A stretch of 64,000 nucleotides of DNA from Cellulomonas sp. KRMCY2 (GTDB taxonomy: Bacteria; Actinomycetota; Actinomycetes; Actinomycetales; Cellulomonadaceae): contig NZ_JAGF01000001.1 of NCBI RefSeq assembly GCF_000526515.1, positions 1,488,001-1,552,000 of the forward strand, written 5' to 3'. The number at the start of each line of letters is the position of its first letter. Positions within the stretch are counted from its first letter, which is position 1. Both the position numbers and the translations under genes were made by a program. Shown here in pieces: positions 25,097 through 44,490 of the stretch. A model generated the notes under the pieces. That model was not told the DNA's origin. It did not search any database and saw only the letters and a list, made by a program, of their open reading frames with translations.

Positions 25097-25141
25097 CGAC
25101 TTCCTGTCACGACCAGGACCTGCACCGACAGGCCGCCACGC

Positions 25142-25198
25142 GTGCTGGTGCCGGGAGCCTGTGCTGGTGCCGGGAGCCTGTGCTGGTGCCGGGAGCCT
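25142..25198. repeat. Triplicate 19-nt tandem repeat
   Basis: Three copies of GTGCTGGTGCCGGGAGCCT (25142, 25161, 25180) lie between the convergent response-regulator and purB genes. They have no coding role. Confidence 0.9.
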
Positions 25199-25206
25199 GA
25201 GCGGGG

Positions 25207-26724
25207 TCAGACGTCCAGGAACCGCACCAGCTGCGCGGCCGCACCGGTGTAGGACGCTGGCGTCATCGCGCCCAGGCGCGCCGCGACGTCGTCCGGCAGG
25301 CCGAGACCGGCCACGAACCGCCGCATGTCGTCCCCGGTGATCCGGCGGCCGCGGGTCAGCTCCTTGAGCCGTTCGTACGGGTCGGCCATCCCGGGTACCC
25401 CGGCGACCCCGGCCGCGCGCATCGCGGACTGCACGGCCTCGCCGAGGACCTCCCAGTTGGCGTCCAGGTCGCGCGCCATGGCCGCGGCGTCGACGTCGAG
25501 CCCGGCCAGGCCGCGACGCACGTTGTCGATGGCCAGCAGCGAGTGTCCGACGGCGGGGCCGATGTTGCGCTGGGTCGTGGAGTCGGTCAGGTCCCGCTGC
25601 ATGCGTGAGGTGACCAGGGTCGAGCCGAGGGTGTCGAGCAGGGCGCTGGACAGCTCGAGGTTGGCCTCGGCGTTCTCGAACCGGATCGGGTTGACCTTGT
25701 GCGGCATCGTCGAGGAGCCGACGGTGCCCTGGCCGCGCACCTGCGCGAAGTAGCCGAGCGAGATGTACGTCCACATGTCGGTGGCGAGGTTGTGCAGGAT
25801 CCGGTTGAACCGCGCCATGTCGGCGTAGAGCTCGGCCTGCCAGTCGTGCGACTCGATCTGGGTCGTCAGGGGGTTCCAGGTGAGCCCGAGGTGCTCGACG
25901 AAGGTCCGCGAGATCGTCACCCAGTCGGCACCCGGCACGGCGGCCAGGTGCGCGCCGTACGTCCCGGTCGCGCCGTTGATCTTGCCGAGGTACTCGGCGG
26001 CCTCGATCCTGCGCAGCTGACGGGTGAGCCGGTGGGCCAGGACGGCGAGCTCCTTGCCGATCGTCGTCGGTGTGGCCGGCTGGCCGTGCGTGCGGGCGAG
26101 CATCGGCACGGCGGCGTGCTCGCGAGCCAGTGCGGCGACGTCCGCCACCAGGAGCTTGGCGGCCGGCAGCCACACCCGCCGGACGGCGCCCTGGACCATC
26201 AGCGCGTAGGCCAGGTTGTTCACGTCCTCGCTCGTGCAGGCGAAGTGCACCAGCTCGGTGACCCGCGGCAGGACGGTGTCCTCGCCGAGCGTCCTCGGTG
26301 CCACCGCGAGGCGGTCCTTGAGCAGGTACTCCACGGCCTTGACGTCGTGGACCGTGATCTTCTCGGTCGCGGCGAGCTCGGCGACGGTGTCGGCGTCGAA
26401 GCCCGCGACGACGTCGCGCAGGTAGTCGCGCTCCTCGCTGGACAGGGTGGGCGCACCGGGTACGACGTGGTGCGAGGTCAGCAGGATCAGCCACTCGACC
26501 TCGACGTGCAGGCGCTCGCGGTTGAGCGCGGCCTCGGACAGGTGGTCGACCAGCGGCGCGACGGTGCTGCGGTACCGCCCGTCGAGCGGGCCGAGGGCGA
26601 TCGGCGGGCTGATCCGGGCCAGGCTGTGCCGGACGCGGGGCTGCACTGTCTGGTCGACGCCCTCGGCGCTGCCGGCATCGTCGGCGCCGGTTCCGGCGGG
26701 AGCGTCGGGCGGGTTCTGCGACAT
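25207..26724 (-). CDS. purB: Adenylosuccinate lyase
   Basis: Cleaves SAICAR and adenylosuccinate in purine synthesis. The 505-aa protein carries the fumarase-superfamily signature SSTMPHKVNPIRFENAEAN, the FACTSEDVNNLAYAL block and the substrate loop ARTHGQPATPTT. Its length and sequence resemble the long bacterial type. ATG at 26724 follows a GGAAGG ribosome site; the frame extending to 26859 is not supported. An acidic N-terminal stretch of about 30 residues precedes the fold. It is divergent from the lacI-type gene. Confidence 0.96.
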   Translation of the reverse strand: MSQNPPDAPAGTGADDAGSAEGVDQTVQPRVRHSLARISPPIALGPLDGRYRSTVAPLVDHLSEAALNRERLHVEVEWLILLTSHHVVPGAPTLSSEERDYLRDVVAGFDADTVAELAATEKITVHDVKAVEYLLKDRLAVAPRTLGEDTVLPRVTELVHFACTSEDVNNLAYALMVQGAVRRVWLPAAKLLVADVAALAREHAAVPMLARTHGQPATPTTIGKELAVLAHRLTRQLRRIEAAEYLGKINGATGTYGAHLAAVPGADWVTISRTFVEHLGLTWNPLTTQIESHDWQAELYADMARFNRILHNLATDMWTYISLGYFAQVRGQGTVGSSTMPHKVNPIRFENAEANLELSSALLDTLGSTLVTSRMQRDLTDSTTQRNIGPAVGHSLLAIDNVRRGLAGLDVDAAAMARDLDANWEVLGEAVQSAMRAAGVAGVPGMADPYERLKELTRGRRITGDDMRRFVAGLGLPDDVAARLGAMTPASYTGAAAQLVRFLDV

Positions 26725-26819
26725 GTGGCAATCCTTCCACGCGGCCCCGTGAGCGGCGGCGGGTGTCCACCCACAGGTGTCCGGCCCGACGGCACCGGGC
26801 CGTGTGGAACCATCGGCCT

Positions 26820-27836
26820 GTGACAGCGAGCCGGACCGTGACGATCCTGGACGTCGCACGCGAGGCGGGCGTGTCGGCGGCGACGGTCTCCCGGGTGCTC
26901 AACGGCTCGAGCACCGTCGATCCGGAACTGGCCCGCCGCGTCCGAGCGGCTGCCGCGGCGACCGCCTACGTGCCGAACAGCACCGGGCGTGCCCTGCGCC
27001 GGCAGGTGTCGGACACCTGGGCCGCGATCGTGACCGACGTGCAGAACCCGTTCTTCACGGCCATGGTCGCCGCGCTCGAGTCGGTCGCCGTGAAGCAGGG
27101 CTACTCGGTGATGCTCTGCAACTCCGACGAGCAGCTGGGCCGTGAGCGCACGTACCTCGAGGCGGCGGTCTCGCAGCGGATGGCGGGTGTCGTGGTGGCG
27201 GTGACCTCGGAGTCGGCCTCCGACCTCGGACCGATCAGGGCGGCACGGATCCCGACTGTCGTGGTCGACCGCCGTCTGCGGGACTACCTGGGCGACACGA
27301 TCCTGGTCGACAACGTCCGGGCCGGCGAGCTGGCCGCCGAGCACCTGATCCAGCACGGCTACCGCCGGATCGCCTGCATCGCCGGCCCGCCCGACGTGAG
27401 CACCACCGAGGACCGGCTCACCGGCTTCCGCGCGGCGCTCGAGCGTGCCGGGCACCCGATCCCCGACCGCTGGGTGTGCCGGGCCAACCTCCGGGCTGAG
27501 GGTGGCGAGGTGGCCATGCGGTCGTTGTTCAACCAGACCGAGCCGCCCGACGCCGTCTTCACCACGAACGGTCCGCTGACGGTCGGTGCATACCGCGCCA
27601 TCCAAGCGGTCGGCAGGTCCATCCCGGCAGACGTCGCGCTGCTCGGCGTCGACGACGACCAGTGGACCCGGATGGTCTCGCCGATGGTCAGTGTCATCCA
27701 GCAGCCGGTCGGCAAGATGGGTCGGCTCGCGGGGGAGCTGCTCCTGGCCCGGTCGCAGGGCGTCGCCTCCGAGCCGCAGCACATCGTCCTGCGCCCCGAG
27801 CTGCTCGTCCGGGCATCCACCGGCCCCCGCACCTGA
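26820..27836 (+). CDS. LacI-family repressor of the D-arabinan locus
   Basis: A 338-aa regulator. The N-terminal LacI helix-turn-helix is TILDVAREAGVSAATVSRVL, followed by the hinge helix region and a periplasmic-binding-protein-like effector domain (about 65-335). GTG at 26820 is chosen since it places the helix-turn-helix at the usual distance from the N-terminus. It lies just upstream of, and in the same direction as, two transcription units that both carry an AGTAATCGATTTCTCA element across the start of transcription. It is therefore the obvious candidate repressor. The inducer is probably D-arabinose, a phosphate of it, or an arabinan oligosaccharide (inference). Confidence 0.9.
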   Translation: MTASRTVTILDVAREAGVSAATVSRVLNGSSTVDPELARRVRAAAAATAYVPNSTGRALRRQVSDTWAAIVTDVQNPFFTAMVAALESVAVKQGYSVMLCNSDEQLGRERTYLEAAVSQRMAGVVVAVTSESASDLGPIRAARIPTVVVDRRLRDYLGDTILVDNVRAGELAAEHLIQHGYRRIACIAGPPDVSTTEDRLTGFRAALERAGHPIPDRWVCRANLRAEGGEVAMRSLFNQTEPPDAVFTTNGPLTVGAYRAIQAVGRSIPADVALLGVDDDQWTRMVSPMVSVIQQPVGKMGRLAGELLLARSQGVASEPQHIVLRPELLVRASTGPRT

Positions 27837-27875
27837 GGACCCCGGACCTGAGGACCCCGGACCTGAGGACCCCGC
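27831..27875. repeat. Triplicate 15-nt tandem repeat over the lacI stop
   Basis: Three copies of ACCTGAGGACCCCGG (the last ends in C) start inside the final codons of the regulator; the first copy supplies its TGA stop. Confidence 0.88.
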
Positions 27876-28077
27876 ACCTCTGCCCCGCCCCTCCTGGCGC
27901 CCGCGGTACCAGGTGCCCGAGCGCGGTACCCGGTGCCCGAGCCCGAGCGCGGGTCCGAACCCCGGCCCTTGCCCCGGCGACCGCCGACCCCACGGTGGCT
28001 TCGAGGTGGGCCACGAACGGGCAGACGTGGGCTACGCGCAGGGGTGGAGTCGCTCGGACCGTGTCTCAAGGGATTGC

Positions 28078-28106
28078 TTGACATCTCCGAGCTGGTTGCC
28101 TACGGT
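28078..28106 (+). promoter_or_regulatory. Sigma-70-type promoter of the D-arabinose catabolic operon
   Basis: TTGACA (28078-28083), a 17-nt spacer and TACGGT (28101-28106) form a near-consensus promoter. The operator begins three bases after the -10 box. Confidence 0.75.
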
Positions 28107-28108
28107 GC

Positions 28109-28125
28109 GAGTAATCGATTTCTCA
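28109..28125. promoter_or_regulatory. LacI-type operator 1
   Basis: The element AGTAATCGATTTCTCA (28110-28125) is identical over 16 nt to operator 2. It is centred on the CG of AATCGATT, the usual LacI-family core, and GAG/CTC flanks extend the palindrome. It covers the expected transcription start. Confidence 0.82.
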
Positions 28126-28152
28126 CCGCCGAGAGATCACAAGGAGACTCCG

Positions 28153-28563
28153 TTGTTGACCGGTATCCACCCCCTGCTCACCGGCACCCTGCTGCGTCAT
28201 CTGGACGCCATGGGGCACGGGGACGCCGTCCTGGTCGCCGATGCGCACTTCCCCGCCGAGCGGCTCGGTCGCCGGGTCGTGGACCTGCCCGGCGTGACCG
28301 CTCCGGAGCTGACGGCGGCGATCTGCACCGTCCTTCCGCTCGACAGCCCGTTGGCCGCCCGCCTCATGGCCACCGACGGTTCCGTCGACGCCGAGGCACT
28401 GGCCGGTGAGCTGCTCGCGGCCTGTGCGGCGCCTGCCGGCGGCTGGGATCACCTGGCCCGCGAGGACTTCTACGCCGCCGGGGCCGACGCCTTCGTCCTG
28501 GTCCGGACCGGTGAGGTACGTCCCTACGGCAACCTCCTGCTGCACAAGGGCCTCGTCCGATGA
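28153..28563 (+). CDS. fucU: RbsD/FucU-family sugar mutarotase, TTG start
   Basis: A 136-aa protein of the RbsD/FucU family, which interconverts anomers or ring forms of free sugars. The N-terminus (LTGIHPLLTGTLL), the MGHGD motif with the catalytic-type His22, ADAHFPAE and the C-terminal YGNLLLHKG all fit. No ATG or GTG exists at the right place. TTG at 28153, six bases after AAGGAG, gives the standard family N-terminus. It is first in the operon, followed by the SIS isomerase (ATGA overlap) and the kinase. In this setting it probably turns released D-arabinose into the ring form used by the kinase rather than acting on L-fucose. Confidence 0.85.
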   Translation: MLTGIHPLLTGTLLRHLDAMGHGDAVLVADAHFPAERLGRRVVDLPGVTAPELTAAICTVLPLDSPLAARLMATDGSVDAEALAGELLAACAAPAGGWDHLAREDFYAAGADAFVLVRTGEVRPYGNLLLHKGLVR

Positions 28564-29267
28564 CCAGCGCGGCGACCTCGCCGACCTACTCGACACGCAC
28601 AGGAGCCTCCGTGAGCCCACCGTTGTCCGACGCCGATCTCGCGCGGGGCCTCGAGGCGGCCTACGCCGCGATGGCGATCGAGTCCGAGGCCATCACGCGT
28701 ACCCGGGAGGCGGTGCGCGAGGCGCTGCCCGAGGCGATCCGCCTGATCAGCCAGGTTCGGGGCCGGGTCATCGTCTCGGGTCTCGGCAAGTCCGGGCACA
28801 TCGGCGCGAAGATGGCCGCGACGCTGGCCAGCACCGGCACGCCGGCTCAGTTCGTGCATGCGGCCGAGGCGCTGCACGGCGACTCCGGGATGGCCACCTC
28901 GCAGGACGCCGCGATCCTCATCTCCTACTCGGGGGAGACCGCGGAGGTCTGCCAGTTCGCACATATGCTCGCTGTCGGCCACGTCCCGGTCATCTCGATG
29001 ACGGGCCGACCGGGGTCCACGCTCGCACGGCGGTCGGACGTCCACCTGTCCATCGCCGTCGAGCGGGAGGCCGACCCGTTGAACCTGGCGCCCACGGCAT
29101 CCACGGCGAGCACCCTGGCGCTCGGCGACGCCCTGGCGGCGGCCCTCATGCAGATCTCGGGCTTCGGCCCGGCGGACTTCGCACTGCGACACCCCGGTGG
29201 CTCCCTCGGCGCTCAGCTCGCCGCCGAACCCCGGACCCGCACCGACGACGAGGCGGCACGGGCATGA
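28560..29267 (+). CDS. D-arabinose-5-phosphate isomerase-like SIS protein (KdsD/GutQ type, no CBS)
   Basis: Predicted to interconvert D-arabinose 5-phosphate and D-ribulose 5-phosphate. The 235-aa SIS domain shows the KdsD/GutQ signatures: GLGKSGHIGAKMAATLASTG (74-93), HGDSGM (106-111), SYSGETAE (122-129) and RHPGGSLG with the conserved His211. The two C-terminal CBS domains of most KdsD/GutQ proteins are absent. ATG 28560 overlaps the fucU stop by 4 nt; GTG 28611 would remove a poorly conserved leader. Actinobacteria of this kind make no Kdo-lipopolysaccharide, so a catabolic role with the adjacent kinase is the natural reading. Confidence 0.85.
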   Translation: MTSAATSPTYSTRTGASVSPPLSDADLARGLEAAYAAMAIESEAITRTREAVREALPEAIRLISQVRGRVIVSGLGKSGHIGAKMAATLASTGTPAQFVHAAEALHGDSGMATSQDAAILISYSGETAEVCQFAHMLAVGHVPVISMTGRPGSTLARRSDVHLSIAVEREADPLNLAPTASTASTLALGDALAAALMQISGFGPADFALRHPGGSLGAQLAAEPRTRTDDEAARA

Positions 29268-30316
29268 GCGGCGGGGTCTGCGTCGTCGGCTCGTTCATGA
29301 TGGACCTCGTGGCGAGCGCCCCACGGCGCCCGCTGCCGGGTGAGACGTTGGTCGGGACCGACTTCGGGACATACCTCGGCGGCAAAGGCTTCAACCAGGC
29401 GGTCGCGGCGGTGCGTGCCGGCGCGACGACGTACCTGGTCGGCCGGCTGGGCAGCGACGAGTTCGGCACCTCGTTCCGCGAGGCCATGCGCATCGAGAAC
29501 GTCCAGTTCGACGGGGTCGTGGTCGACGCCGAAGTGGGGACGGGAGTCGGTCTGCCGGTCGTCGAGCCCGACGGCCAGAACTCGATCATCATCGTTCCGC
29601 GGGCCAACCTGCGTGTCGACGTCCAGCAGATCGAGTCGGCCAGACAGACGCTGACCGATGCCGCGGTGCTGCTGCTCCAGCTCGAACTGCCGGTCGGTAC
29701 GGCTCTGGCCGCGGCCCGGACGGCGCACGGTGCGGGTACGGTCGTCGTGCTCAACCCGGCGCCGTCTGCTCCGCTGCCGGGCGCCCTGCTGGACCACGTC
29801 GACGTCGTCGTGCCCAACGAGGTCGAGCTGCTCGACCTGGCCGGACTGCCGGGGGCCGACGTAGGACGGGCCGCGATGGCCCTGCACCGGCAATGGGGCA
29901 CCGACGTCGTCGTGACCCTCGGCTCGCGCGGAGTGCTGGTCCTGACCGGCGGCGACGAGCCGCGACACGTGCCGGCCCATCACGTGACGGCCCTCGACAC
30001 CGTCGGCGCAGGCGACACCTTCTGCGGCTACCTCGGCGCAGGCCTGGCGGACGGGCGTCCACTGCTCGATGCCGTCGTCACCGCCAACGCGGCCGCGGCG
30101 ATCGCCGTGACGCGGCGGGGCGGGGCCGAGGCGGCTCCCCGTCGGCACGAGGTCCAGGCCTTCCTCGAGGTGACCTGGCGCCGGGTCGACGGGCGGCTCC
30201 CGGTCGCGGACGGAGGCGGCTCCGACGCCTACGGCACTGCCGCGACGGGTCACGGTTCGGTCCCGACGGGTCACAGTTCGGCAACGTCCTTGACGATCGA
30301 CCATCAGCGCCTCTAG
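29264..30316 (+). CDS. Ribokinase-family (PfkB) sugar kinase, candidate D-arabinose 5-kinase
   Basis: A 350-aa PfkB kinase closest in pattern to ribokinase. It has the sugar-binding GGKGFNQA (39-46), the VVPNEVELLDLAG block and the catalytic anion-hole motif GAGD with Asp251 (248-251). The last 35 residues are a low-complexity tail, partly coded by a 21-nt repeat (GACGGGTCAC- units at about 30244 and 30265). ATG 29264 overlaps the isomerase stop by 4 nt. Ribokinases phosphorylate O5 of a furanose. Paired with a D-arabinose-5-phosphate isomerase and D-arabinan hydrolases, D-arabinose is the likely substrate; D-ribose cannot be excluded from sequence. Confidence 0.9.
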   Translation: MSGGVCVVGSFMMDLVASAPRRPLPGETLVGTDFGTYLGGKGFNQAVAAVRAGATTYLVGRLGSDEFGTSFREAMRIENVQFDGVVVDAEVGTGVGLPVVEPDGQNSIIIVPRANLRVDVQQIESARQTLTDAAVLLLQLELPVGTALAAARTAHGAGTVVVLNPAPSAPLPGALLDHVDVVVPNEVELLDLAGLPGADVGRAAMALHRQWGTDVVVTLGSRGVLVLTGGDEPRHVPAHHVTALDTVGAGDTFCGYLGAGLADGRPLLDAVVTANAAAAIAVTRRGGAEAAPRRHEVQAFLEVTWRRVDGRLPVADGGGSDAYGTAATGHGSVPTGHSSATSLTIDHQRL

Positions 30317-30319
30317 CGT
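30290..30319 (+). promoter_or_regulatory. Promoter of the D-arabinan hydrolase/transport operon
   Basis: TTGACG (30290-30295), an 18-nt spacer and TAGCGT (30314-30319) lie in the 3' end of the kinase gene. The second operator begins two bases after the -10 box. Confidence 0.65.
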
Positions 30320-30320
30320 C

Positions 30321-30336
30321 AGTAATCGATTTCTCA
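30321..30336. promoter_or_regulatory. LacI-type operator 2
   Basis: AGTAATCGATTTCTCA is an exact copy of the core of operator 1 and sits in the same position relative to its -10 box. It is followed by the AGGAGGAAG ribosome site of the GH172 gene. Confidence 0.82.
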
Positions 30337-30351
30337 ACGAGGAGGAAGACC

Positions 30352-31434
30352 ATGGCATCCGGCTACGGAAGCTTCGGGAGCAGCCTGCGGGACCTGCCAC
30401 GCCTGCGCGACCACCGTCGCCTGCGCGAGTCCAGCTGGGACCGCGCGGGCGGGAACGCCGACTTCGTCACGGTCCACCCCGGCGAGACGATCACCCTGGC
30501 GGACATCCGGGGGGCCGGCTCCGTCAACCACATCTGGATGACCGTCGCGTCGATGACCGGTGGTCAACCCGAGAGCCGCGACAACGACTACCTGCGCAAG
30601 CTGGTGCTCCGGATCTTCTGGGACGGAGCCGACCAGCCCAGCGTGCTCGTCCCGCTCGGTGACTTCTTCGGGGTCGGCCACGCGCGCAGCACGAACTTCG
30701 CCTCCGCGCCGCTGCAGATGAGCCCCCAGGACGGCAAGGGCTTCAACTCCTTCTTCCACATGCCCTTCGCCGCCGGGGCGCGCTTCGAGCTGACCAGCGA
30801 GTGCGTCGAGGAGGACATGCGCTTCTACTTCTACATCGACTACGACGCCTTCCCCGCGCTCGAGGACGGGCTCGGCCGGTTCCACGCCTCGTGGAACCGC
30901 CAGGTCCCGACCGACGGCATCCCGCAGGGGGCGGAGACGAACCCCGAGTACCTCTTCGGCGGCCTCAACCTCGACGGGGCCGGCAACTACACCATCCTCG
31001 AGACCCAGGGCCGGGGCCACTACGTCGGCTGCGTGCTGAACATCACCAACCTTCGCGAGACCGCCGACTGGAACTGGTACGGCGAGGGCGACGACATGAT
31101 CTTCGTCGACGGCGAGGCCTTCCCGCCGAGTCTGCACGGGACCGGGACCGAGGACTACTTCAACACCGCGTGGTGCCCGAGCGAGAGCTACCACGCCCCG
31201 TACCACGGCATCACGTTGCCAGGCGGCCCCAACTGGAGCGGTCAGATCTCCACCTACCGCTTCCACATCGAGGACCCGGTCACGTTCACCACCTCGATCC
31301 GGGTGTCGATCGAGCACGGTCACGCCAACAAGCGCAACGACGACCTGTCGTCGGTCGCGTACTGGTACCAGGAGACCCCCGCCGCCGGCCTGACGCTGCT
31401 TCCCGCAGCCCAGCGCCTACCGAGGCTGGGATGA
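30352..31434 (+). CDS. GH172 (DUF2961) glycosidase, candidate exo-alpha-D-arabinofuranosidase
   Basis: A 360-aa DUF2961 protein. This family is GH172, which includes exo-alpha-D-arabinofuranosidases active on mycobacterial arabinan and difructose-anhydride enzymes. Conserved features are GSVNHIWMTV (56-65), PLGDFFGVGHA (101-111), an N-G-F-F-x-M-P-type stretch at 131-138, and the acidic block HGTGTEDYFNTAW (262-274) whose Glu267 is a likely catalytic residue. There is no signal peptide, so it acts in the cytoplasm on imported oligosaccharides. ATG 30352 follows a perfect AGGAGG site. It is coupled by ATGA to the GH183 gene. Fructan activity is the main alternative, but the neighbouring GH183 and GH116 genes favour D-arabinan. 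Confidence 0.88.
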   Translation: MASGYGSFGSSLRDLPRLRDHRRLRESSWDRAGGNADFVTVHPGETITLADIRGAGSVNHIWMTVASMTGGQPESRDNDYLRKLVLRIFWDGADQPSVLVPLGDFFGVGHARSTNFASAPLQMSPQDGKGFNSFFHMPFAAGARFELTSECVEEDMRFYFYIDYDAFPALEDGLGRFHASWNRQVPTDGIPQGAETNPEYLFGGLNLDGAGNYTILETQGRGHYVGCVLNITNLRETADWNWYGEGDDMIFVDGEAFPPSLHGTGTEDYFNTAWCPSESYHAPYHGITLPGGPNWSGQISTYRFHIEDPVTFTTSIRVSIEHGHANKRNDDLSSVAYWYQETPAAGLTLLPAAQRLPRLG

Positions 31435-32564
31435 GGCGCGCGCTCATGGTGATCGGAGCCACCGCGGCAGCCGCGGCACTGGGCGCCTGCTCGCAGGCGG
31501 GTACCGGCGACGTCGACACCGACCAGAACAAGCCGTTCGTCCTGACCGGTGTCAGCAACCTCACTGAGGTCGCTCAGCTCACGGGTCCCGGCTCGGCGTT
31601 GAACGACACCGACGCCGTGGGGGTGGCCGGCACGGACCTCGGCTCGATGTTCAACGTCGGCGACCGGACCTACTTTGTCTTCGGGGACACGTTCGGCACC
31701 CGCGACCCGGACTCGTACGGCGGGCAGGGCGGCAACTGGCGCTCCAACGTCCTCGCGCACACGACCGACGACGACCCGACCGACGGCATCACCTTCGACG
31801 GCTGGATCGTAGACGACATCGGCCTGGCCCTCGAAGCCGTCCCCGGCCTGCACGAGGCCGACGGGACCGGTGAGGTCACCAAGATCCCCACGGGCGGGTT
31901 CGCCGTCGGGGACACGATGTACCTCGCGTTCATGTCCGTGCACCACTGGGGCGACCCGGGACAGTGGGACGCCAACTACTCGTCGCTGGCCAGGAGCGTC
32001 GACGGCGGTCAGACGTGGCAGGTGCTCGACGACGTCCGCTGGCCGGGGGACTCGAACTTCGTCCAGGTGACCACCGCCGAGGTCCGCGAGTCCGGCGAGG
32101 ACGTCCTCTACTTCTGGTCCATCCCCGCCGGCAGGTTCGGCGGGGTCCAGCTGATGAAGGTGCCGGCCGACACCGCGTCGGTCGAGGACCTCGGCGCGTA
32201 CCGGTACTTCACCGGGACGGCCGACGACGGGACGCCGCAGTGGTCCTCGGCGATCGACGAGGCGGCCACCGTCGTCGACGGCACGGTGGGCGAGCTCTCC
32301 GTGATGTACAGCGACCATCTCGAACGCTGGCTCATGACCTACTCCACCGGCGGTGATGCGGTCATCGCGGAGGGCATCACCCCGTGGGGCCCGTGGTCGG
32401 AGCCGCACGTCATCACGACCCAGGCCGAGCACCCGGGCCTGTACGCCCCCTACCTCAACCCCCGGTACGTCGCCGATGACGGTCGAACCGTCTACTTCTC
32501 GATGTCCCTCTGGGGTCCCTACAACGTCTTCTGGTTCAGCGTCGATCTCGACGCAGACTTCTGA
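31431..32564 (+). CDS. DUF4185/GH183 lipoprotein, candidate endo-D-arabinanase
   Basis: A 377-aa lipoprotein: Arg-Arg, a hydrophobic stretch and lipobox LGAC with Cys20. The mature part is a DUF4185 beta-propeller with GTDLGSMF (67-74), YFVFGDTFG (81-89), NWRSNVLAHT (102-111), SSLARSVDGGQTWQ and LYAPYLNPRY. DUF4185 is the founding domain of GH183, endo-acting D-arabinanases that cut the alpha-D-arabinan of arabinogalactan and lipoarabinomannan. As the only exported hydrolase of the locus it should produce the oligosaccharides taken up by the following ABC importer. The start overlaps the GH172 stop as ATGA. Family assignment is by motif pattern; cleavage specificity is inferred. Confidence 0.87.
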   Translation: MRRALMVIGATAAAAALGACSQAGTGDVDTDQNKPFVLTGVSNLTEVAQLTGPGSALNDTDAVGVAGTDLGSMFNVGDRTYFVFGDTFGTRDPDSYGGQGGNWRSNVLAHTTDDDPTDGITFDGWIVDDIGLALEAVPGLHEADGTGEVTKIPTGGFAVGDTMYLAFMSVHHWGDPGQWDANYSSLARSVDGGQTWQVLDDVRWPGDSNFVQVTTAEVRESGEDVLYFWSIPAGRFGGVQLMKVPADTASVEDLGAYRYFTGTADDGTPQWSSAIDEAATVVDGTVGELSVMYSDHLERWLMTYSTGGDAVIAEGITPWGPWSEPHVITTQAEHPGLYAPYLNPRYVADDGRTVYFSMSLWGPYNVFWFSVDLDADF

Positions 32565-32610
32565 GTCACCCCACCGGCTCGTCAGCGAGTCATCATCTAG
32601 GAGGATGGGC

Positions 32611-33966
32611 ATGCGCTCCACACGAATGCGATTCGTCGGCATCGGTGCCGTCGTCGCGACCGGGCTGCTCCTGGCAGCCTGCAGCGGTACCCCTGCCGGG
32701 CCGAGCGATTCGGACGACGGCGAGACCTCGAGCGAGGCGACCGCGTCGGGCGCGACCGAGGTGACGGTCTGGCAGCAGTCGTTCACCGACGAGGAGAACG
32801 CCTGGTACAAGGACGTCGTCGACGGGTACAACGCCTCGCAGAACGACGTCGTCGTCAAGCTCCAGGTCGTCCCCGGTGACGCGTGGGAGCAGCGGATGAC
32901 CGCGGCCCAGGCGGCCGGCAACGCCCCGGACGTCTATACGGCCAACTACGGCGACATCGCGGACGCCGCCCGCACCTCGCAGATCGCCTCGCTCACCGAC
33001 CTCATCAGCGACGCCGCATGGGACGACCTCCAGGAGAACGTCCGTGACTTCGTCACGGTCGACGGCGAGGAGTACGCCTACCCGATCCTCGTCGAGCCGT
33101 CCGCGGTCCTCTACTACCGGACCGACCTCTTCGAGGCCGCCGGCATCGATGGCCCGCCCACGACGTGGGAGGAGCTCATCGCGGATGCGGAGAAGCTCTC
33201 GACGCCGGAGGTCTTCGGCGTCCGGCTCGCGCAGAACGCGACAGACATGGCGTGGTCGACGTGGGGCTACCAGCTCAACGCCGCCGGGCAGTACCCGGTC
33301 AGCGCCGACTGGTCCGAGGCGTCCGCGACCGAGGCCTACGCGCCCCTGCTCCAGGCCTTCCAGGATCTCTTCGCGTCGGGTGCGCTGCCCCCGGCCGACA
33401 GCGTGGGCTACGCCGACGCGACGACCTTCATCGACGGCAAGTACGCGATGATGGCGAACGGCTCGTGGGCCGCGAGCCAGATCCTCGCGAGTGACTCCGG
33501 GATCGCGGAGAACGTCGCCGTCGCGGCGATGCCGTCTTTCGACGGCGAGGCCGGGAGGACGACGGCCACCCTCGGTGGCTGGACGCTCGTCGTCGACGCC
33601 AAGTCGGACGCCCCAGCGGACGCCGCCGCCTTCATCGAGTGGGCGCTCGGCGGTGACCCGGAGAACGTCATCTCGTTCTTCGAGGCGACGGCGTTCTCCA
33701 AGGTGACCGCTCGGGTCTCCGTCGGCGAGGCGATCAATGCGGTCCCCGACATCGACTCGATCAACCCGTGGAACGCCACGATCCAGTCCGACATCGTCCC
33801 TTTCGCGCAGGCCGAACCCACCTACCCGTGGAACATCAGCCTCGCGATGGGTGAGGCGATCGAGGCCGCCATGCAGGGCACCCCGGTCGCGGAGGCCCTG
33901 GCCGCGGCCGATGCGAAGATCCAGACCGAGATCGAGAACTCCGGCCTCGCCGGAATGGGCTCCTGA
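32611..33966 (+). CDS. Sugar ABC transporter substrate-binding lipoprotein
   Basis: A 451-aa family-1 (MalE-like) solute-binding protein with lipobox LAAC (Cys24) and a Ser/Thr/acidic linker. A sugar-binding fold follows (EVTVWQQSF at the start, DGKYAMMANGSW and GGWTLVV later). ATG 32611 is six bases after AGGAGG; the ATG two codons earlier is too close. It is predicted to capture the oligosaccharides released by the GH183 lipoprotein. It is followed by a very strong hairpin before the permease genes. The ligand is inferred from the operon only. Confidence 0.94.
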   Translation: MRSTRMRFVGIGAVVATGLLLAACSGTPAGPSDSDDGETSSEATASGATEVTVWQQSFTDEENAWYKDVVDGYNASQNDVVVKLQVVPGDAWEQRMTAAQAAGNAPDVYTANYGDIADAARTSQIASLTDLISDAAWDDLQENVRDFVTVDGEEYAYPILVEPSAVLYYRTDLFEAAGIDGPPTTWEELIADAEKLSTPEVFGVRLAQNATDMAWSTWGYQLNAAGQYPVSADWSEASATEAYAPLLQAFQDLFASGALPPADSVGYADATTFIDGKYAMMANGSWAASQILASDSGIAENVAVAAMPSFDGEAGRTTATLGGWTLVVDAKSDAPADAAAFIEWALGGDPENVISFFEATAFSKVTARVSVGEAINAVPDIDSINPWNATIQSDIVPFAQAEPTYPWNISLAMGEAIEAAMQGTPVAEALAAADAKIQTEIENSGLAGMGS

Positions 33967-33972
33967 TCCGAC

Positions 33973-34009
33973 CCGGTGGCGGGTGCGCAGCGCGCGCGCC
34001 CGCCACCGG
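33973..34009 (+). promoter_or_regulatory. 11-bp GC hairpin between binding protein and permeases
   Basis: CCGGTGGCGGG (33973-33983) pairs perfectly with CCCGCCACCGG (33999-34009). The 15-nt loop can fold on itself (GCGC/GCGC). It starts six bases after the binding-protein stop and has no T-tract. Such intercistronic stems often stabilise the upstream mRNA and reduce read-through, giving excess binding protein over permease. Confidence 0.7.
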
Positions 34010-34030
34010 CCCTGCGTCGAAGGCGAAGTG

Positions 34031-34966
34031 ATGAGCAGCGCACCGATGATGTTGATGCACTCGAAGGGCCGTACGGAACCGCGCCGGCGGACGAAGCACC
34101 CCGACACCAAGGTTGCGCTCCTCATGCTGGCGCCGGCCATGATCCTCTTGTCGATCTTCGTGCTCTGGCCGTTGGTCTACGCCTGGATCGTCAGTTTCTA
34201 CACCTGGAGCTTCTACGAGGAGTCCGCGTTCGTCGGGCTCGGCAACTTCCGGATGGTCCTCAAGGATCCGGTGTTCTGGGCCTCGCTCAGGCGGGGACTG
34301 ACGTTCTCGGTCGTCGTCGTCCCGTCGATCCTCGTGCTGGCGTTCCTCTTCGCCAACCTCGTCAAGACGATGGGGACCCGAATGGCGACGGTGCTCAAGG
34401 CCGCGATCTACATCCCGACCGTGATCTCCGGTGTCATCGCCTCGATCGTCTTCGTCCTCATCTACGAGTACCGCCAGGGTGTCCTCAACTGGGTCCTCAG
34501 CCTCGTCGGCGTAGCCGACACCGCTTGGTTGGGCAGTGCGCAGACGGCGCTGTACGCGCTGACGCTGCCCGCCGTCTGGCTGGGGCTCGGTCTCGCCTCG
34601 CTCATCATGCTCGCGGGCCTGCTCGACATCCCGGAGAGCTACTACGAGGCGGCCGAGCTCGAGGGCGCGGGGTGGTGGCAGCGGACGATCCACATCACGC
34701 TCCCGCTGATGAAGAACATCCTGCTGTACCTGCTGGTCACCGGCTTCGTCGGGGCGATCCAGCAGTACGAGCTCCCGCTCGTCATGACGGCCGGTGGACC
34801 CACGCAGTCGACGCTGCTGCCCAATCTGCTGATCTTCCAGCACTTCAACAACGACCTCTACGTCGGGTACTCCATCGCGGCCGCGCTCCTCCTCTTCCTC
34901 GTGCTCGGCGGCCTGTCCGCAGTGATCTTCCGGCTCATCAACTCGGAGAAGGCGGTGGACGGCTGA
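34031..34966 (+). CDS. Sugar ABC transporter permease (MalF/UgpA type)
   Basis: A 311-aa membrane protein with about six helices and the cytoplasmic EAA loop YYEAAELEGAGWWQRTIHI, where the ATPase docks. ATG at 34031 is chosen; GTG directly before it (34028) is equivalent. It shares one base with the next permease gene (TGATG). With the binding protein and second permease it forms an importer of the carbohydrate uptake 1 class. No ATPase gene is present in the locus. Confidence 0.95.
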   Translation: MSSAPMMLMHSKGRTEPRRRTKHPDTKVALLMLAPAMILLSIFVLWPLVYAWIVSFYTWSFYEESAFVGLGNFRMVLKDPVFWASLRRGLTFSVVVVPSILVLAFLFANLVKTMGTRMATVLKAAIYIPTVISGVIASIVFVLIYEYRQGVLNWVLSLVGVADTAWLGSAQTALYALTLPAVWLGLGLASLIMLAGLLDIPESYYEAAELEGAGWWQRTIHITLPLMKNILLYLLVTGFVGAIQQYELPLVMTAGGPTQSTLLPNLLIFQHFNNDLYVGYSIAAALLLFLVLGGLSAVIFRLINSEKAVDG

Positions 34967-35889
34967 TGACTGTCGACGCACCCCATGCAGACCCGGCCCG
35001 CCTCGTGACCCGCTTGACGCCGCCGCCGACCACGGTCAGGGAACGCAGGACGCGGTCGGCCCGGACGACCAGCCCCGGCTGGTCCGCCGTCCGGTATGCC
35101 TTCGCGGCCGTCGTCGTCCTAGCGGCGCTCTTCCCGCTCGCATGGATGGCCATCGCCGGCTTCAAGGCCCGCGACGAGGTCGTCACGTCCCCGTTCCAGT
35201 TCTTCCCGGATGTGTGGCAGCCGGAGAACTACCGGGCGATCCTCGCCGACCCCATGTTCGTGCGGGCCCTCGGCGTGACGTTCCTCGGAGCCCTGCTCTT
35301 CGCGGCCCTCAGCCTCACGGTGAACTCGATGGCGGCATACGCGTTCGCCCGGCTCGACTTCGCCTTCAAGCGCACGCTCTGGGTCGTGACGATCGGCACG
35401 ATGTTCATCCCCGGCATGGCGATCCTCCTGACGTCGTACATCGTCGTCACGCGGATGGGCATGCTCAACACGATGGCGGTCCTCGTCGTTCCCGGGGCTA
35501 CAGCCGGCGTGCACATCTTCTTCATCCGGCAGTTCTACCTGGGCATCCCGACCGCGATCGAGGAGGCCGCCCTCATCGACGGCGCCGGGCGCTGGACGAT
35601 CTTCACGCGGATCTTCCTGCCGATGTCCAAGCCGGTCTTCGTCGTCGTCGGCATCACGTCGTTCCTCGCGTTCTGGAACGCCTACGTGTGGCCGATCATG
35701 ACGATCACCGACCCGGAGAGCTCGCTCGTCCAGATCCAGCAGTACCTCGCGACCTTCCGCTCGGACCGCCGGGTGGAGTACGGCATGCTCATGGCCGGGT
35801 CGACCCTTGCCGCGACGCCGGTCATCGCGATCTTCCTCGTCTTCCAGCGCTACATCATCAGCGGTATCCGGATCTCGGGCATCAAGTGA
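34966..35889 (+). CDS. Sugar ABC transporter permease (MalG/UgpE type)
   Basis: A 307-aa permease with six helices and the EAA loop IEEAALIDGAGRWTIFTRI. A basic N-terminal tail of about 45 residues precedes the first helix. ATG 34966 overlaps the stop of the preceding permease by one base. It is the second half of the importer channel, probably energised by a shared MsiK-like ATPase encoded elsewhere, as is usual in actinobacteria. Confidence 0.95.
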   Translation: MTVDAPHADPARLVTRLTPPPTTVRERRTRSARTTSPGWSAVRYAFAAVVVLAALFPLAWMAIAGFKARDEVVTSPFQFFPDVWQPENYRAILADPMFVRALGVTFLGALLFAALSLTVNSMAAYAFARLDFAFKRTLWVVTIGTMFIPGMAILLTSYIVVTRMGMLNTMAVLVVPGATAGVHIFFIRQFYLGIPTAIEEAALIDGAGRWTIFTRIFLPMSKPVFVVVGITSFLAFWNAYVWPIMTITDPESSLVQIQQYLATFRSDRRVEYGMLMAGSTLAATPVIAIFLVFQRYIISGIRISGIK

Positions 35890-35921
35890 GGCCCACCCAG
35901 TCCCGAGGCTCGGAGAGCACG

Positions 35922-38522
35922 ATGGCAGGACGCCGCATCCCGCACGCCGACGGCCGGCACGTCGCGATGCCGCTCGGCGGGATCGGGACCGGCACGGTCG
36001 CGGTCGGCGCCGACGGGGGGCTGCGCCAGTGGCAGTTCCACCACATCGGCAACCACCACGGTGACCTGCCCGGTTCCTTCTTCGCCGTGCGGGCGACCCA
36101 GTGGGAGCCGGCGGTCGACGAGCTGCGGGTCCTGCAGGCCCGACCTGTCGACGGTCCGCCGACGCCCATGGTCGACGACGATGCGGTGCCGGACTGGCAG
36201 CGACGGCTCGCCGGACGGTACGGCGTGGACGGTGCCACCTTCAGTGCGGTCTACCCGCGGGCCAGCGTCGAGCTGCACGACACCACCTTGCCCGTGCGGG
36301 TCACGATGGACCTGCAGAACCCGCTGGTCCCGCTGGACACAGACGCGTCGTCGCTGCCGGTCGTGATGGCGACCTTCACGCTGCACAACCCGACCGCTGT
36401 CCCGGTGCACGGGCTGCTCGGCGGTGCCCTGCAGAACGCCGTGGGCTACGACGGCGTGACGCCCGTCGACGGCGTCCGTGCCTCCTGCTACGGCGGCAAC
36501 ACGAACCGCGTGCTGCGCTCGGGCGGCTGGACGCACGTCCTGCTCGAGAACCACACCCTGCCCGCGGAGCATCCCGGGGCCGGCCAGATGGTGCTGGCGG
36601 CCGACGACCCGAACGCGACCGTGCACCTGCAGTGGCGTGACCCCGAGGAGTTCTTCGCGTTCCTGCGCGGGCGCGCCATGGGGGCGGACGTCGAGCGGCT
36701 CACGATGACACCGACGGTGGCGGACCACCAGGTCGGTGGCCCGACGTCGCTGCACCGGCCGAGCGCACCCGGCGAGACCTGGAACGCCGGCGTCGCGGTC
36801 CCGTTCTTCCTCGAGCCCGGGGCGACGACGACGGTCCGGCTGCTCCTCACCTGGCACTTCGCGAACCGGTACGTGGACTTCCCGCAGTTCGGTCCCGGCC
36901 ACCCGCAGTGGGGACCCACCCGGTTCTGGCTGGGCAACCACTACGCACTTGCCCACGAGGACGCGCTCGCCGTGGCCCGGGACGTCGAGGCCCGGTGGAC
37001 CGGGCTGACCGGGGCCACTAAGGCCTGGACCGAGCTCCTGGCCGATGGCGCGCTCGACGCGACGGCCGTCGAGCACCTCGCGGCGCAGGCGGCGATCATC
37101 CGCAGCCCGACCTGCTTCCGGACGGCCGACGGGGCCTTCTTCGGCTTCGAGGGGGTCAACGGCGCCTCGACCCGGGGGCACGCCGGTGATGTCGGCGGCT
37201 CCTGCCCGCTGAACTGCACGCACGTGTGGAACTACGCGCAAGGGGTGGCACGTCTCTTCCCCGAGCTCGAGCGAAGCATGCGGACGACCGAGCTCGGGAT
37301 CATGCAGGCGCCGAGCGGGACGCTCCCGCACCGGGTCGTCGTGCCGACGTACCTGCCCCAGCTCTGGGACGTCCCGATCGGTGGTCCCGACGCACCGGCC
37401 CTCGACGGGATGCTCGGCACGGTCCTCAAGACCTACCGCGAGGTGCGCAACGGAGCCGGGCTCGACTGGCTGAGGCGTTGCTGGCCTGGGGTCCGTCGAC
37501 TGCTGAGTCATGTTCGGTCGACGTGGGATCCCGCGGCGACGGGCGTCCTGCGTGGGGTCCAGCCGTCGACACACGACATCGACCTGCGCGGCGTCAACAG
37601 CTTCATGGGCAGCTTGTGGCTCGCTGCGCTGCGCGCCGCCCAGGAGATGGCCTTGCTCGTCGACGGGTCGGGGGACGCAGAGCTCGCAGCCGAGCTGTCC
37701 GCGCTGTTCGAGCGGGGCAGCGACGCGTACGACACCTTGCTGTTCAGTGGTGAGTACTACGTCCAGGTGCTCGATCCCGGCGAGGTCCGGGAGTTCCAGT
37801 GGGAGCAGGGCTGCCTCGCCGACCAGCTCATCGGCCAGTGGTGGGCGCACCAGCTCGGCCTCGGCTACGTCCTGCCCCGCGAGCACGTGGTCAGCGCGCT
37901 GCGCGCGGTCGTGCGGCACAACCTCCGGACCGGCTTCGACGACCTCGTGCATCCGTTCCGGGTCTTCGCCGACGGCGACGACACCGGGCTGCTCATGTGC
38001 ACCTGGCCGACCGGCGGCCGCCCCGAGGTGCCGACCCGGTACTGCGACGAGGTCTGGACGGGCAGCGAGTACCAGGTCGCCGCGCACTGCCTGCACGAGG
38101 GGCTGATCGACGAGGCCACGGCGATCCTCGACGGCGTGTGGGCGCGCTATGACGGTCGGCGGCGCAACCCCTACAACGAGATCGAGTGCGGCGACCACTA
38201 CGTCCGGGCGCTCGCCGGCTGGAGCGTGGTCGACGCGATGACTGGGCAGCAGTGGGACGCCGTGCGGCGGGACCTGACCGTCAAGCTGCCCGACGACGAT
38301 ACATGGTTGCCGGTGGTGCTCGACACCGGATGGGGACGCGTCGGCCGACGTGGCGGGGAGATCGTCGTCGAGTGCCTGCACGGCTCGATGGCGATCGAGG
38401 GCCTCACGGTCACCCTGGAGGCTGCGGGCGGTGCCTCCACCGAGTCCCGTCGTCGGCTCGACGTAGGCGACGGCATCGTCGTCACGCCGGGTGCCCCGGC
38501 GACGACCGACCTCGATCGGTGA
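35922..38522 (+). CDS. GH116 glycosidase, candidate exo-beta-D-arabinofuranosidase
   Basis: An 866-aa protein with the GH116 two-domain layout. The N-terminal beta-domain opens with MPLGGIGTGTVAVGADGGL (16-34). The (alpha/alpha)6 domain contains the NCTHVWNYAQGVARLFPELE signature (about 430-450) and the catalytic-Asp region THDIDLRGVNSFMGSLWLAA (about 550-570). There is no signal peptide, so it is cytoplasmic. GH116 is best known for beta-glucosidases and glucosylceramidases, but it also contains an exo-beta-D-arabinofuranosidase that removes the beta-linked terminal residues of mycobacterial arabinan. Placement beside GH172 and GH183 genes makes that the preferred reading. A GGAGAG site precedes ATG 35922. 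Confidence 0.87.
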   Translation: MAGRRIPHADGRHVAMPLGGIGTGTVAVGADGGLRQWQFHHIGNHHGDLPGSFFAVRATQWEPAVDELRVLQARPVDGPPTPMVDDDAVPDWQRRLAGRYGVDGATFSAVYPRASVELHDTTLPVRVTMDLQNPLVPLDTDASSLPVVMATFTLHNPTAVPVHGLLGGALQNAVGYDGVTPVDGVRASCYGGNTNRVLRSGGWTHVLLENHTLPAEHPGAGQMVLAADDPNATVHLQWRDPEEFFAFLRGRAMGADVERLTMTPTVADHQVGGPTSLHRPSAPGETWNAGVAVPFFLEPGATTTVRLLLTWHFANRYVDFPQFGPGHPQWGPTRFWLGNHYALAHEDALAVARDVEARWTGLTGATKAWTELLADGALDATAVEHLAAQAAIIRSPTCFRTADGAFFGFEGVNGASTRGHAGDVGGSCPLNCTHVWNYAQGVARLFPELERSMRTTELGIMQAPSGTLPHRVVVPTYLPQLWDVPIGGPDAPALDGMLGTVLKTYREVRNGAGLDWLRRCWPGVRRLLSHVRSTWDPAATGVLRGVQPSTHDIDLRGVNSFMGSLWLAALRAAQEMALLVDGSGDAELAAELSALFERGSDAYDTLLFSGEYYVQVLDPGEVREFQWEQGCLADQLIGQWWAHQLGLGYVLPREHVVSALRAVVRHNLRTGFDDLVHPFRVFADGDDTGLLMCTWPTGGRPEVPTRYCDEVWTGSEYQVAAHCLHEGLIDEATAILDGVWARYDGRRRNPYNEIECGDHYVRALAGWSVVDAMTGQQWDAVRRDLTVKLPDDDTWLPVVLDTGWGRVGRRGGEIVVECLHGSMAIEGLTVTLEAAGGASTESRRRLDVGDGIVVTPGAPATTDLDR

Positions 38523-38586
38523 CCGGGTGTCAGCTGTCCGCGAGACCTCCGACTTCGGTGAGATGCTGCGCTGAGCGGGAGATCTC

Positions 38587-39576
38587 GTGGGAGAACGGCG
38601 ATCCGGGGGCCGGGTGGCCGATGATGGGGCGGTGGACCGGTCGACGACGGCGGGCGCCCCGGCTGCGCGGGGTCGTGGCCCGGGCCTGCCCGGGGCAGCG
38701 ACGATCGGTGGCCCACCCGGACGCCGCAGCGCAGGGGTCGTCGTGCTGCTCGGGGTCGCGGTCGTGGCGAGCGCCCTCGCGGGTCCGTGGGACCCGCAGA
38801 CCCGCACGGCGCTCGAGTCCGGGTCCGCCGAGGAACCATTCGTCCCCCCTGAGCCGGTGCCGACCACCGATCCCCTGATCGAGGCGCTCGAGCAGATGGA
38901 CGTCGAGCCGTGGGACCTGAGCTGGCTCTGGCTGGGCCTTGCCGGGCTCGTCGCCTGCGCCCTGCTCTACTTCCTGGTGCGCTGGCTGCGGTACCTCCGG
39001 CCGCCGCACGTCGACGGGCCGCCGGACTCCGCCGGGATCCTGTCCGGTGGCCTGGTCCTCCGGGACGACGTCGTGCCCGACCTCCCGACCCTGCGCGAAG
39101 GGCTCGAGGGTGCCGACGAGCACCTGCGCTCGGCGCAGCGGCCGGCGGACGCGATCATCGCCGCCTGGGTCGCGCTCGAGGACGCCGCCGAGCGGTCGGG
39201 CATCGCGCGGGAACCGGCCTCGACACCCACCGAGTTCACCGTCGAGGTGCTCGACCGCGCGCCGGTCGACCCGGCGGCCACCCGGACGCTGCTGGCCCTG
39301 TACCTGCGGGCCCGCTTCAGCGAGGAGCAGATGGTCCCGGGCGACGTCGCGGTGGCCACCTCGGCGGTGCGCGCGCTCGCGGACGCCCTCGCGCGCGAGC
39401 CGGACGAGCCGGCTGAGCCGGACGGGCAGGCTGGGCCCGATGGGCCGGACGGGCAGGCTGGGCCGGATGGGCCGGACGGGCAGGCTGGGCCGGATGGGCC
39501 GGATGGGCCGGACGGGCAGGCTGGGCCGGATGGGCCGGATGGGTCCGACGAGCCCGGTCGGCCGGAGCCGACATGA
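38587..39576 (+). CDS. DUF4129-type membrane protein with collagen-like tail
   Basis: A protein of 329 aa with two membrane helices (about 48-66 and 112-132). A soluble DUF4129-type domain (about 165-275, with DAIIAAWVALEDAAERSGI) and a C-terminal tail of GPDGPDGQA repeats follow. DUF4129 proteins are commonly found beside transglutaminase, MoxR and DUF58 genes; their function is unclear. GTG 38587 has a GGAG site. GTG 38632 is an alternative, with a GATGAT box six bases upstream, and would remove 15 residues. It is coupled by ATGA to the next gene and heads a five-gene membrane operon. Confidence 0.8.
   Translation: MGERRSGGRVADDGAVDRSTTAGAPAARGRGPGLPGAATIGGPPGRRSAGVVVLLGVAVVASALAGPWDPQTRTALESGSAEEPFVPPEPVPTTDPLIEALEQMDVEPWDLSWLWLGLAGLVACALLYFLVRWLRYLRPPHVDGPPDSAGILSGGLVLRDDVVPDLPTLREGLEGADEHLRSAQRPADAIIAAWVALEDAAERSGIAREPASTPTEFTVEVLDRAPVDPAATRTLLALYLRARFSEEQMVPGDVAVATSAVRALADALAREPDEPAEPDGQAGPDGPDGQAGPDGPDGQAGPDGPDGPDGQAGPDGPDGSDEPGRPEPT
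39421..39546. repeat. 27/36-nt minisatellite coding the collagen-like tail
   Basis: Two 27-nt units (39421, 39448) and two 36-nt units (39475, 39511), all beginning GACGGGCAGGCTGGGCC, encode the Gly-Pro-Asp tail. Copy-number change in multiples of 9 nt keeps the frame. Confidence 0.88.
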
Positions 39577-44315: not shown

Positions 44316-44321
44316 AGCCTA
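44316..44321 (-). promoter_or_regulatory. Candidate -10 box (TAGGCT) of the EamA gene
   Basis: TAGGCT on the minus strand, then six bases, then the ATG at 44309. Its first three bases are the TAG stop of the IS481 remnant. Confidence 0.45.
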
Positions 44322-44490
44322 GGCGTACTGACCCGCTGGGTTGTTGACGCGGTCGATGGGCCTGAGGCCGCCGATGCCGAGGTGGGGTCGTTCTAGGTTG
44401 TAGTGCTGGAGCCAGGTGGGCAAGAGGGCGGCGCGTCCGGCGTTGGTGGTGAACACCTGGGAGTAGGCCCGCTCGGTGGCCAGGGTGGGA
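44319..44490 (-). pseudogene. C-terminal remnant of an IS481-family transposase
   Basis: About 55 residues ending in a stop at 44319 match the C-terminus of IS481 DDE transposases. They include LPTWLQHYNLERPHLGIGG and the terminal RVNNPAGQY. Everything upstream (the catalytic core and left end) is missing. The similarity stops where an opposite-strand alpha-galactosidase fragment begins. It marks an old insertion/deletion event and cannot transpose by itself. Confidence 0.85.

Follow-up and report, generated by a model that had tools for sequence, protein, structure and literature searches.

A LacI-linked locus of Cellulomonas sp. KRMCY2 with a predicted role in feeding on D-arabinan from mycolic-acid bacteria

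A stretch of 64,000 nucleotides from Cellulomonas sp. KRMCY2 (contig NZ_JAGF01000001.1, positions 1,488,001 to 1,552,000; hereafter, the window) contains a set of genes that are all collinear on the + strand between positions 26838 and 38522 according to the gene calls, translations and Pfam. The window has 73% GC and belongs to a chromosome that is a single contig of 4.5 Mb. We conclude that the gene set very probably makes up a locus, controlled by a LacI-family regulator, with which the organism uses D-arabinan from mycolic-acid bacteria as food. The D-arabinan function had been put forward in a preliminary description of the window and is well supported by the nearest solved structures, the active-site residues, the lack of an Emb match and the conservation of the operon and its operator. 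No Emb arabinosyltransferase match was found in the genome (among 14 controls, Corynebacterium glutamicum alone gave one), nor any match to the 8-phosphate synthase of 3-deoxy-D-manno-octulosonate (KDO-8-P synthase, TIGR01362), which makes feeding on foreign D-arabinan the best reading.

In the proposed mechanism, a GH183 surface lipoprotein would cleave D-arabinan within the chain and an ATP-binding cassette (ABC) importer, with its ATPase encoded elsewhere, would take up the oligosaccharides. GH172 and GH116 enzymes would release alpha- and beta-linked D-arabinofuranose in the cytoplasm, and a FucU-type mutarotase would interconvert the forms of the freed D-arabinose. A PfkB kinase would then form D-arabinose 5-phosphate, which a KdsD-like isomerase would convert into D-ribulose 5-phosphate for the pentose-phosphate pathway. 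The LacI protein would sense a product and let go of two palindromic operators, one 5' of the catabolic genes and the other 5' of the hydrolase genes. It should be noted that we infer all the activities, cell locations, effector, directions of the steps and growth phenotype of this scheme.

Gene content and hydrolases

The genes named in the preliminary description are all present (gene calls, translations and Pfam). Pfam and NCBIfam place them as LacI, RbsD/FucU, SIS, PfkB, GH172, GH183, a solute-binding protein (SBP), two permeases and GH116; NCBIfam holds no family for GH172, GH183 and GH116, and the hydrolase families were called by Pfam. All six parts of a D-arabinan locus of the Gram-positive type co-occur here, namely GH183, GH172, GH116, the ABC importer, the isomerase and the kinase.

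26838..27836, + strand, regulator of the LacI family, a proposed repressor dedicated to the locus (Pfam LacI and Peripla_BP)
28109..28124, no strand, putative operator 1, GAGTAATCGATTTCTC, 5' of the FucU gene
28156..28563, + strand, RbsD/FucU-type sugar mutarotase (PF05025, E 9e-27); an alternative start TTG at 28153 is possible
28611..29267, + strand, single-domain SIS protein, putative D-arabinose-5-phosphate isomerase, KdsD/GutQ-like (TIGR00393)
29264..30316, + strand, PfkB kinase, ribokinase relative, proposed D-arabinose 5-kinase (TIGR02152, residue changes)
30320..30335, no strand, putative operator 2, CAGTAATCGATTTCTC, 5' of the GH172 gene
30352..31434, + strand, GH172 (DUF2961), proposed intracellular exo-alpha-D-arabinofuranosidase (PF11175, 282 bits, E 4e-84)
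31431..32564, + strand, GH183 (DUF4185), putative endo-D-arabinanase, proposed cell-surface lipoprotein (PF13810, 284 bits, E 2e-84)
32611..33966, + strand, solute-binding lipoprotein of the sugar ABC importer (Pfam)
34031..34966, + strand, ABC permease 1 (Pfam)
34966..35889, + strand, ABC permease 2 (Pfam)
35922..38522, + strand, GH116, proposed intracellular exo-beta-D-arabinofuranosidase (two Pfam domains, E 7e-44 and 3e-42)

The assignment of the hydrolases to GH183, GH172 and GH116 holds by the Pfam hidden Markov models, the nearest solved structures and the active-site residues. The preliminary description had made its case hinge on the DUF4185-like and GH116 proteins belonging to these families, and by Pfam both fall inside them. 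The GH183 gene is the sole copy in the genome, and the 284 bits of its product compare with a cut-off of 39.5. The nearest solved relative is EndoMA1 (8hhv, E 1e-53), all eight of whose active-site residues (D33, D51, E243, R198, W138, P141, L292 and Y293) are kept, as judged by eye with the EndoMA1 positions, like those of ExoMA2 below, taken from PMC10509167. The C-terminal module of EndoMA1 is absent, and a lipoprotein signal, LGAC, is seen by eye at the start of the protein.

For GH116, ExoMA2 (8ic6, E 4e-117) is the nearest solved relative by far, with glucosylceramidases next at 1e-25. Asp552, His434 and Arg471 align with the acid/base D557, H446 and R483 of ExoMA2, taken as marks of GH116 exo-beta-D-arabinofuranosidases of subfamily 4, given an offset of 4 in the chain numbering that was derived from the aligned residues themselves. 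The ExoMA2 nucleophile, E431, is paired by phmmer with Arg within a stretch of low similarity; the nucleophile of the window enzyme is probably Glu410, in a nearby [FY]EG motif. Glu410, Asp552, His434 and Arg471 are invariant in 24/24 rows above 700 bits, the window's included, in an alignment that omitted more distant rows and, like that of the kinase paralogues below, eight duplicate genomes (L104-L111). By eye, no signal peptide was seen in either GH116 or GH172.

The GH172 protein had been expected to be ExoMA1-like, and this was ruled out, with alphaFFase1 scoring higher; the nearest solved structures are, in order, 4kq7, 7v1v (alphaFFase1), 8ah3 and then ExoMA1 (8ic8). Its Cys275 occupies the position of Gly299 in alphaFFase1 and Asn253 in ExoMA1. 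The 10 rows of the close alignment, among them the window's, all have Cys there, and so do 4kq7 and 8ah3; the latter is DG02479 of Dysgonomonas gadei, which we take to be DgGH172c. Gly299 in alphaFFase1 makes room for fructose, and Asn253 is the fructose-blocking residue in ExoMA1. According to the main text of PMC10509167, DgGH172c is highly similar to alphaFFase1; exo-D-arabinofuranosidase activity is described for the D. gadei GH172 enzymes in the main text of PMC10115798. Specificity for D-arabinofuranose is thus likely, yet the least certain among the three hydrolases.

GH172 proteins of this type were also observed in thirteen Saccharopolyspora loci (L132-L137, L144, L146, L149, L150, L159, L175 and L178) in a shared, different setting, with no GH183 or GH116 matches near the GH172 gene. 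Searching plasmids with GH172 returned 131 records, none of which reaches 60% identity; 51 were from Sinorhizobium and 42 from Klebsiella.

The ABC sugar importer of the preliminary description is borne out as to its SBP and two permeases; its ATPase gene is absent from the locus, and a MalK-like ATPase (50% identity) is encoded elsewhere in the genome. The SBP carries the lipoprotein signal LAAC (by eye). Its nearest solved structure is 7bvt, which the main text of PMC10509167 also gives as a relative of the Microbacterium SBP.

Isomerase, kinase and their distribution

The SIS isomerase scores 211.0 bits with TIGR00393 (KpsF/GutQ), above the curated cut-off of 203.7, which is exceeded in only 5/396 genomes; several related locus isomerases fall short of it. 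The best solved relative is the arabinose 5-phosphate isomerase 2xhz. The KdsD positions K59, H88, E111, E152 and H193, which we take to be the important ones, are conserved in 23/23 rows, the window's included. In these rows the locus isomerases have 197-236 amino acids (aa), compared with 328 aa in E. coli KdsD. The residue alignments of isomerases and kinases left out the duplicate genomes L104 and L106-L110 and kept isomerase rows of at least 150 bits and PfkB rows of at least 200 bits.

The kinase reaches 274 bits with TIGR02152 (ribokinase), under the cut-off of 299.65, which no kinase in eight genomes attains. It departs from RbsK in that M and F replace N14 and A45, positions that presumably lie within the sugar-binding stretches of ribokinase. 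In all 22 kinases beside the isomerase, the window's included, Met takes the place of Asn at position 14, and Ala at position 45 gives way to Phe, Leu, Val or Tyr; D16, K43, N46, E143 and D255 are retained in 22/22. Meanwhile, the ribokinase paralogues aligned from eight genomes (those above 225 bits) have Asn14 and Ala45 in 10/10. Two of these genomes have no locus kinase, and in the other six Met and Phe occur in 6/6 locus kinases.

The best solved relative of the mutarotase is the L-fucose mutarotase 2wcv. A FucU-type enzyme fits the locus because D-arabinose shares its ring configuration with L-fucose. A KdsD-like isomerase together with a ribokinase relative having a changed sugar site reads as a route from D-arabinose through D-arabinose 5-phosphate to D-ribulose 5-phosphate, implying that the predicted kinase acts before the isomerase.

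A second SIS gene of the same genome (985654-986103; L096 9589-10242), whose product is 33% identical to the locus isomerase, was considered as an alternative isomerase and rejected, as it falls in a separate tree group (100/98). Three members of this group (L192-L194) adjoin distant FGGY and dehydrogenase-like genes, and one more SIS gene, that of G212 (139 bits), attaches on the opposite side of the tree by a long branch.

The distribution of these genes was examined with thresholds of 180 bits for the isomerase and 100 bits for GH183, both set after viewing the lists. Among 396 sampled genomes of the order, 14 have an isomerase of at least 180 bits and 37 a GH183 of at least 100 bits. GH183 occurs in 12/14 isomerase genomes and in 25/382 others (Fisher p 6e-12, kinship ignored), and the isomerase lies at most 10 kb from GH183 in 10/14. 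The remaining four are draft contigs: in G305, G206 and G084 the isomerase is near distant GH116- or GH172-type genes (33-34% identity), and in G194 it lies on a 3.4-kb contig with FucU. PfkB adjoins the isomerase in 12 of the 14, the exceptions being the short contig of G194 and L069. In the D-arabinan cluster of L069 (13409-15751), kinase genes of the DhaK and DhaL types (Pfam Dak1 and Dak2) come after the isomerase gene; their products may offer an alternative route to D-arabinose 5-phosphate or act on a different sugar.

Among 394 genomes sampled across the class, three more isomerase genes were found, all of family f44 (L187, L188 and L189), in genomes of 1.3-2.2 Mb. In L188 and L189 a FucU-type gene (28% identity) comes directly after the isomerase-kinase pair. 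In L187 an RbsD-like gene stands two genes further on, and a LacI gene and ribose-type ABC genes are beside the pair (both by eye).

When named genomes were scanned with the GH172 alignment and the best 80 of 371 relatives were kept, 80 loci resulted, each of which was classed within the sequence stretch around it. An isomerase with PfkB is found in 13, six of which are the same genomes as loci of the order sample; 25 have a fucose-isomerase-family gene and/or an FGGY kinase, 42 have neither, and none has both. Of five fucose-isomerase-family representatives examined by Pfam, three (470-aa type) match every one of the three fucose-isomerase domains, and two (545-aa type) have matches that stay under the Pfam cut-off. 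Fucose_iso_C, searched genome-wide in 39 genomes, occurs in 2/12 GH183 genomes with the isomerase and in 23/25 without it (p 1e-5, kinship ignored, two of the 25 positives being below the Pfam cut-off). Two of the 37 GH183 genomes have neither, and two further isomerase genomes without a strong GH183 gave no Fucose_iso_C match. By genus, seven are with the isomerase, seven without, and none is mixed. The isomerase-PfkB and FucI-family sets are nearly complementary.

Operator, regulator and origin of the locus

The preliminary description spoke of shared operators, and AGTAATCGATTTCTCA indeed precedes both the FucU gene and GH172. The 14-mer GTAATCGATTTCTC occurs in the 4.5-Mb genome only at the two locus sites when up to two mismatches are allowed, not counting the opposite-strand reading of the first site; the backwards control gave 0 matches. 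Among the CG-centred palindromes of 14-20 bp listed for 25000-39500, only the AATCGATT type recurs before locus genes. The regulator itself has RbsR as its best NCBIfam match, below the cut-off of that family, and is 54-64% identical to the LacI proteins encoded in related clusters of f13, L075 excepted.

The core AATCGATT is intergenic and 5' of the isomerase gene or its operon in 8/8 clusters L061-L068. It is also found 5' of the isomerase or its operon in all 13 named isomerase loci, whose families include Streptosporangiaceae, Micromonosporaceae, Kribbellaceae and Propionibacteriaceae; the copy in L155, GAGAAATCGATTTCTC, is a perfect palindrome. Across the 80 named loci there are 81 intergenic sites and one genic site by our own gene calls, compared with 0-5 intergenic matches for eleven other palindromes of the same composition. 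The core is present in 11/25 fucose-isomerase/FGGY loci and 7/42 other loci, and it was not found in L069, L070, L072, L073, L076, L078 and L079.

We also observed a divergent DUF4185 protein of ~600 aa in L064 (13390-15204; 40.5 bits against the cut-off of 39.5), with homologues in L061, L065-L067, L084, L087 and L130. An operator copy stands 5' of its gene in several loci, which suggests a GH183-like branch within the same regulon.

The locus is sporadic, GH183 being found in 1/35 sampled genomes of the organism's family. The flanks are syntenic in the congener G263, with 83% identity to the left and, across the four closest pieces to the right, 71-80%, and its slot of ~2.9 kb holds four other small genes in place of the 12 kb in the window; the slot itself thus seems variable. 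Some of these slot genes are WXG-like by eye (L190 8434-10774). The GC content is 70.0% within the locus and 74.2% in the remainder of the window. The locus isomerase groups inside those of f13, a family that includes records of Pseudactinotalea, Occultella and Actinotalea caeni, with support of 85/93 in a tree that was rooted at the midpoint and has long branches. The locus was likely gained horizontally, and loss in the congener instead is possible. Beyond the right flank, at 44319-44456, a short fragment resembles the end of an insertion sequence (IS)-type transposase by eye.

Weighing the readings and comparison with known systems

A number of observations weigh against our interpretation. 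GH172 is closer to the fructan-type alphaFFase1 than to ExoMA1. In L069, DhaK/DhaL are present where PfkB is expected, and the three f44 loci have PfkB adjacent to the isomerase with no D-arabinan hydrolase match in 20 kb, so the isomerase-kinase pair is not tied to D-arabinan. GH183 is seen in 7/13 and GH116 in 6/13 named isomerase loci over the stretch examined. In the tree, the long branch of E. coli KdsD arises within the locus isomerases, and a single origin of these is therefore not established. The LacI proteins of L076, L078 and L079 are 59-60% identical to the window's, yet these loci lack the operator. The near-complementarity takes in two positives below the Pfam cut-off and counts that ignore kinship, and FucI-family genes were the only alternative looked for among possible D-arabinose isomerases.

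In spite of these points, the rival explanations fare worse. Members of the KdsD group of SIS isomerases have phosphorylated sugars as substrates, which makes it improbable that SIS and PfkB act in that order, with D-arabinose converted to D-ribulose and then phosphorylated by a ribulokinase. Neither the genome, where no match to a fucose-isomerase domain (FucI family) was found, nor the near-complementarity of the isomerase and FucI sets favors such a route, although D. gadei provides a precedent on D-arabinan with a locus containing a predicted fucose isomerase (main text of PMC10115798). The higher score of GH172 to alphaFFase1 would suit a fructan or difructose-anhydride locus, with GH172 as an alpha-D-fructofuranosidase of the alphaFFase1 type and the kinase as a fructokinase. 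This is very improbable, as Cys replaces Gly299 both in the close alignment and in 8ah3 and 4kq7, and the GH183 and GH116 active sites are of the D-arabinan type. Moreover, we know of no role for a D-arabinose-5-phosphate isomerase in fructose use.

Still less probable are two explanations to which we give equally little credence. The organism might remodel D-arabinan of its own, a role that has been proposed for mycobacterial GH183 enzymes. This would agree with the occurrence of GH183 in mycolic-acid bacteria (main texts of PMC10509167 and PMC10115798), but the genome has no Emb transferase domain and the importer and catabolic genes share a unit with the hydrolases. Alternatively, the D-arabinose 5-phosphate formed by the isomerase might go into KDO or a comparable sugar of the cell surface. 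That would match the known role of KdsD and KpsF, which provide this compound for KDO; against it stand the lack of a KDO-8-P synthase match, the operon context and the isomerase itself, in which Pfam found no CBS domain.

Returning to the kinase-first route, we consider it likely that FucU, the kinase and the isomerase form a dedicated pathway, interchangeable with a FucI and FGGY set behind a shared D-arabinan apparatus and LacI operator, and that the kinase is the missing gene for EC 2.7.1.54. Volk reportedly described, about 1959-1962, a D-arabinokinase and a phosphoarabinoisomerase in Propionibacterium pentosaceum, now Acidipropionibacterium acidipropionici; these enzymes would catalyze the same two reactions as the window kinase and isomerase. 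EC 2.7.1.54 is presumably the D-arabinokinase of this organism. In A. timonense, of the same genus (L118), genes for the isomerase, PfkB, GH172, importer and LacI lie in a row, and no GH183 or GH116 was seen in the 21 kb around them. EC 2.7.1.54 is tabulated by a 2007 survey of orphan enzymes under the class "difficult" (PMC1940265), and in the literature searched, as far as covered, D-arabinokinase turned up only for Leishmania. The gene row and the orphan number make the locus kinase a good candidate for this activity.

The preliminary description held that a joint regulon of this kind is little described. In fact, this kind of locus is already known, as the main text of PMC10509167 reports one in Microbacterium arabinogalactanolyticum. 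What look new are the identity of the isomerase and kinase (the kinase-first branch), the complementarity with FucI and the conserved operator. A kinase-first route with a KdsD-like isomerase was not found in the open literature and may be in print in subscription journals, which were mostly uncovered. The branch and the FucI complementarity are absent from the main-text parts of PMC10509167, whose figures or supplements may show the route. The words LacI, regulator, operator and repressor are absent from the main text of PMC10509167, as are LacI, operator, repressor and GH116 from that of PMC10115798. If our interpretation is true, an uncommon sugar of the mycobacterial wall serves several actinomycete families as food under a defined regulon, KdsD-type isomerases have a role in bacteria without KDO, and a gene can be proposed for the orphan EC 2.7.1.54. 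The operator offers a handle for finding more D-arabinan enzymes as tools to map mycobacterial glycans.

The Microbacterium locus is, by the main text of PMC10509167, induced by D-arabinose and by mycobacterial cell-wall extract, and clusters in other Actinobacteria, Cellulomonas sp. 73-145 among them, are mentioned there. Like the window locus, it has the same three hydrolase families, "a putative isomerase and kinase" whose type is unstated in the main text sections, endo-enzymes with and exo-enzymes without a signal sequence, and an ABC importer with an SBP near 7BVT; it has four GH183 genes, whereas the window locus has one. PUL42 of D. gadei likewise directs GH172 and GH183 at D-arabinan but belongs to a member of the Bacteroidota and contains a predicted fucose isomerase (main text of PMC10115798), so the route there is probably isomerase-first; PMC10509167 points out a GH116 gene in the same cluster.

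Among the E. coli systems, KdsD shares with the window isomerase the SIS family and the five kept positions; the window enzyme is shorter than the E. coli protein and is encoded in a sugar-use operon. The rbs operon has a mutarotase, a kinase and a LacI-family regulator of the same kinds, whereas in the window N14 and A45 are changed, an isomerase is added and the importer is of another type.

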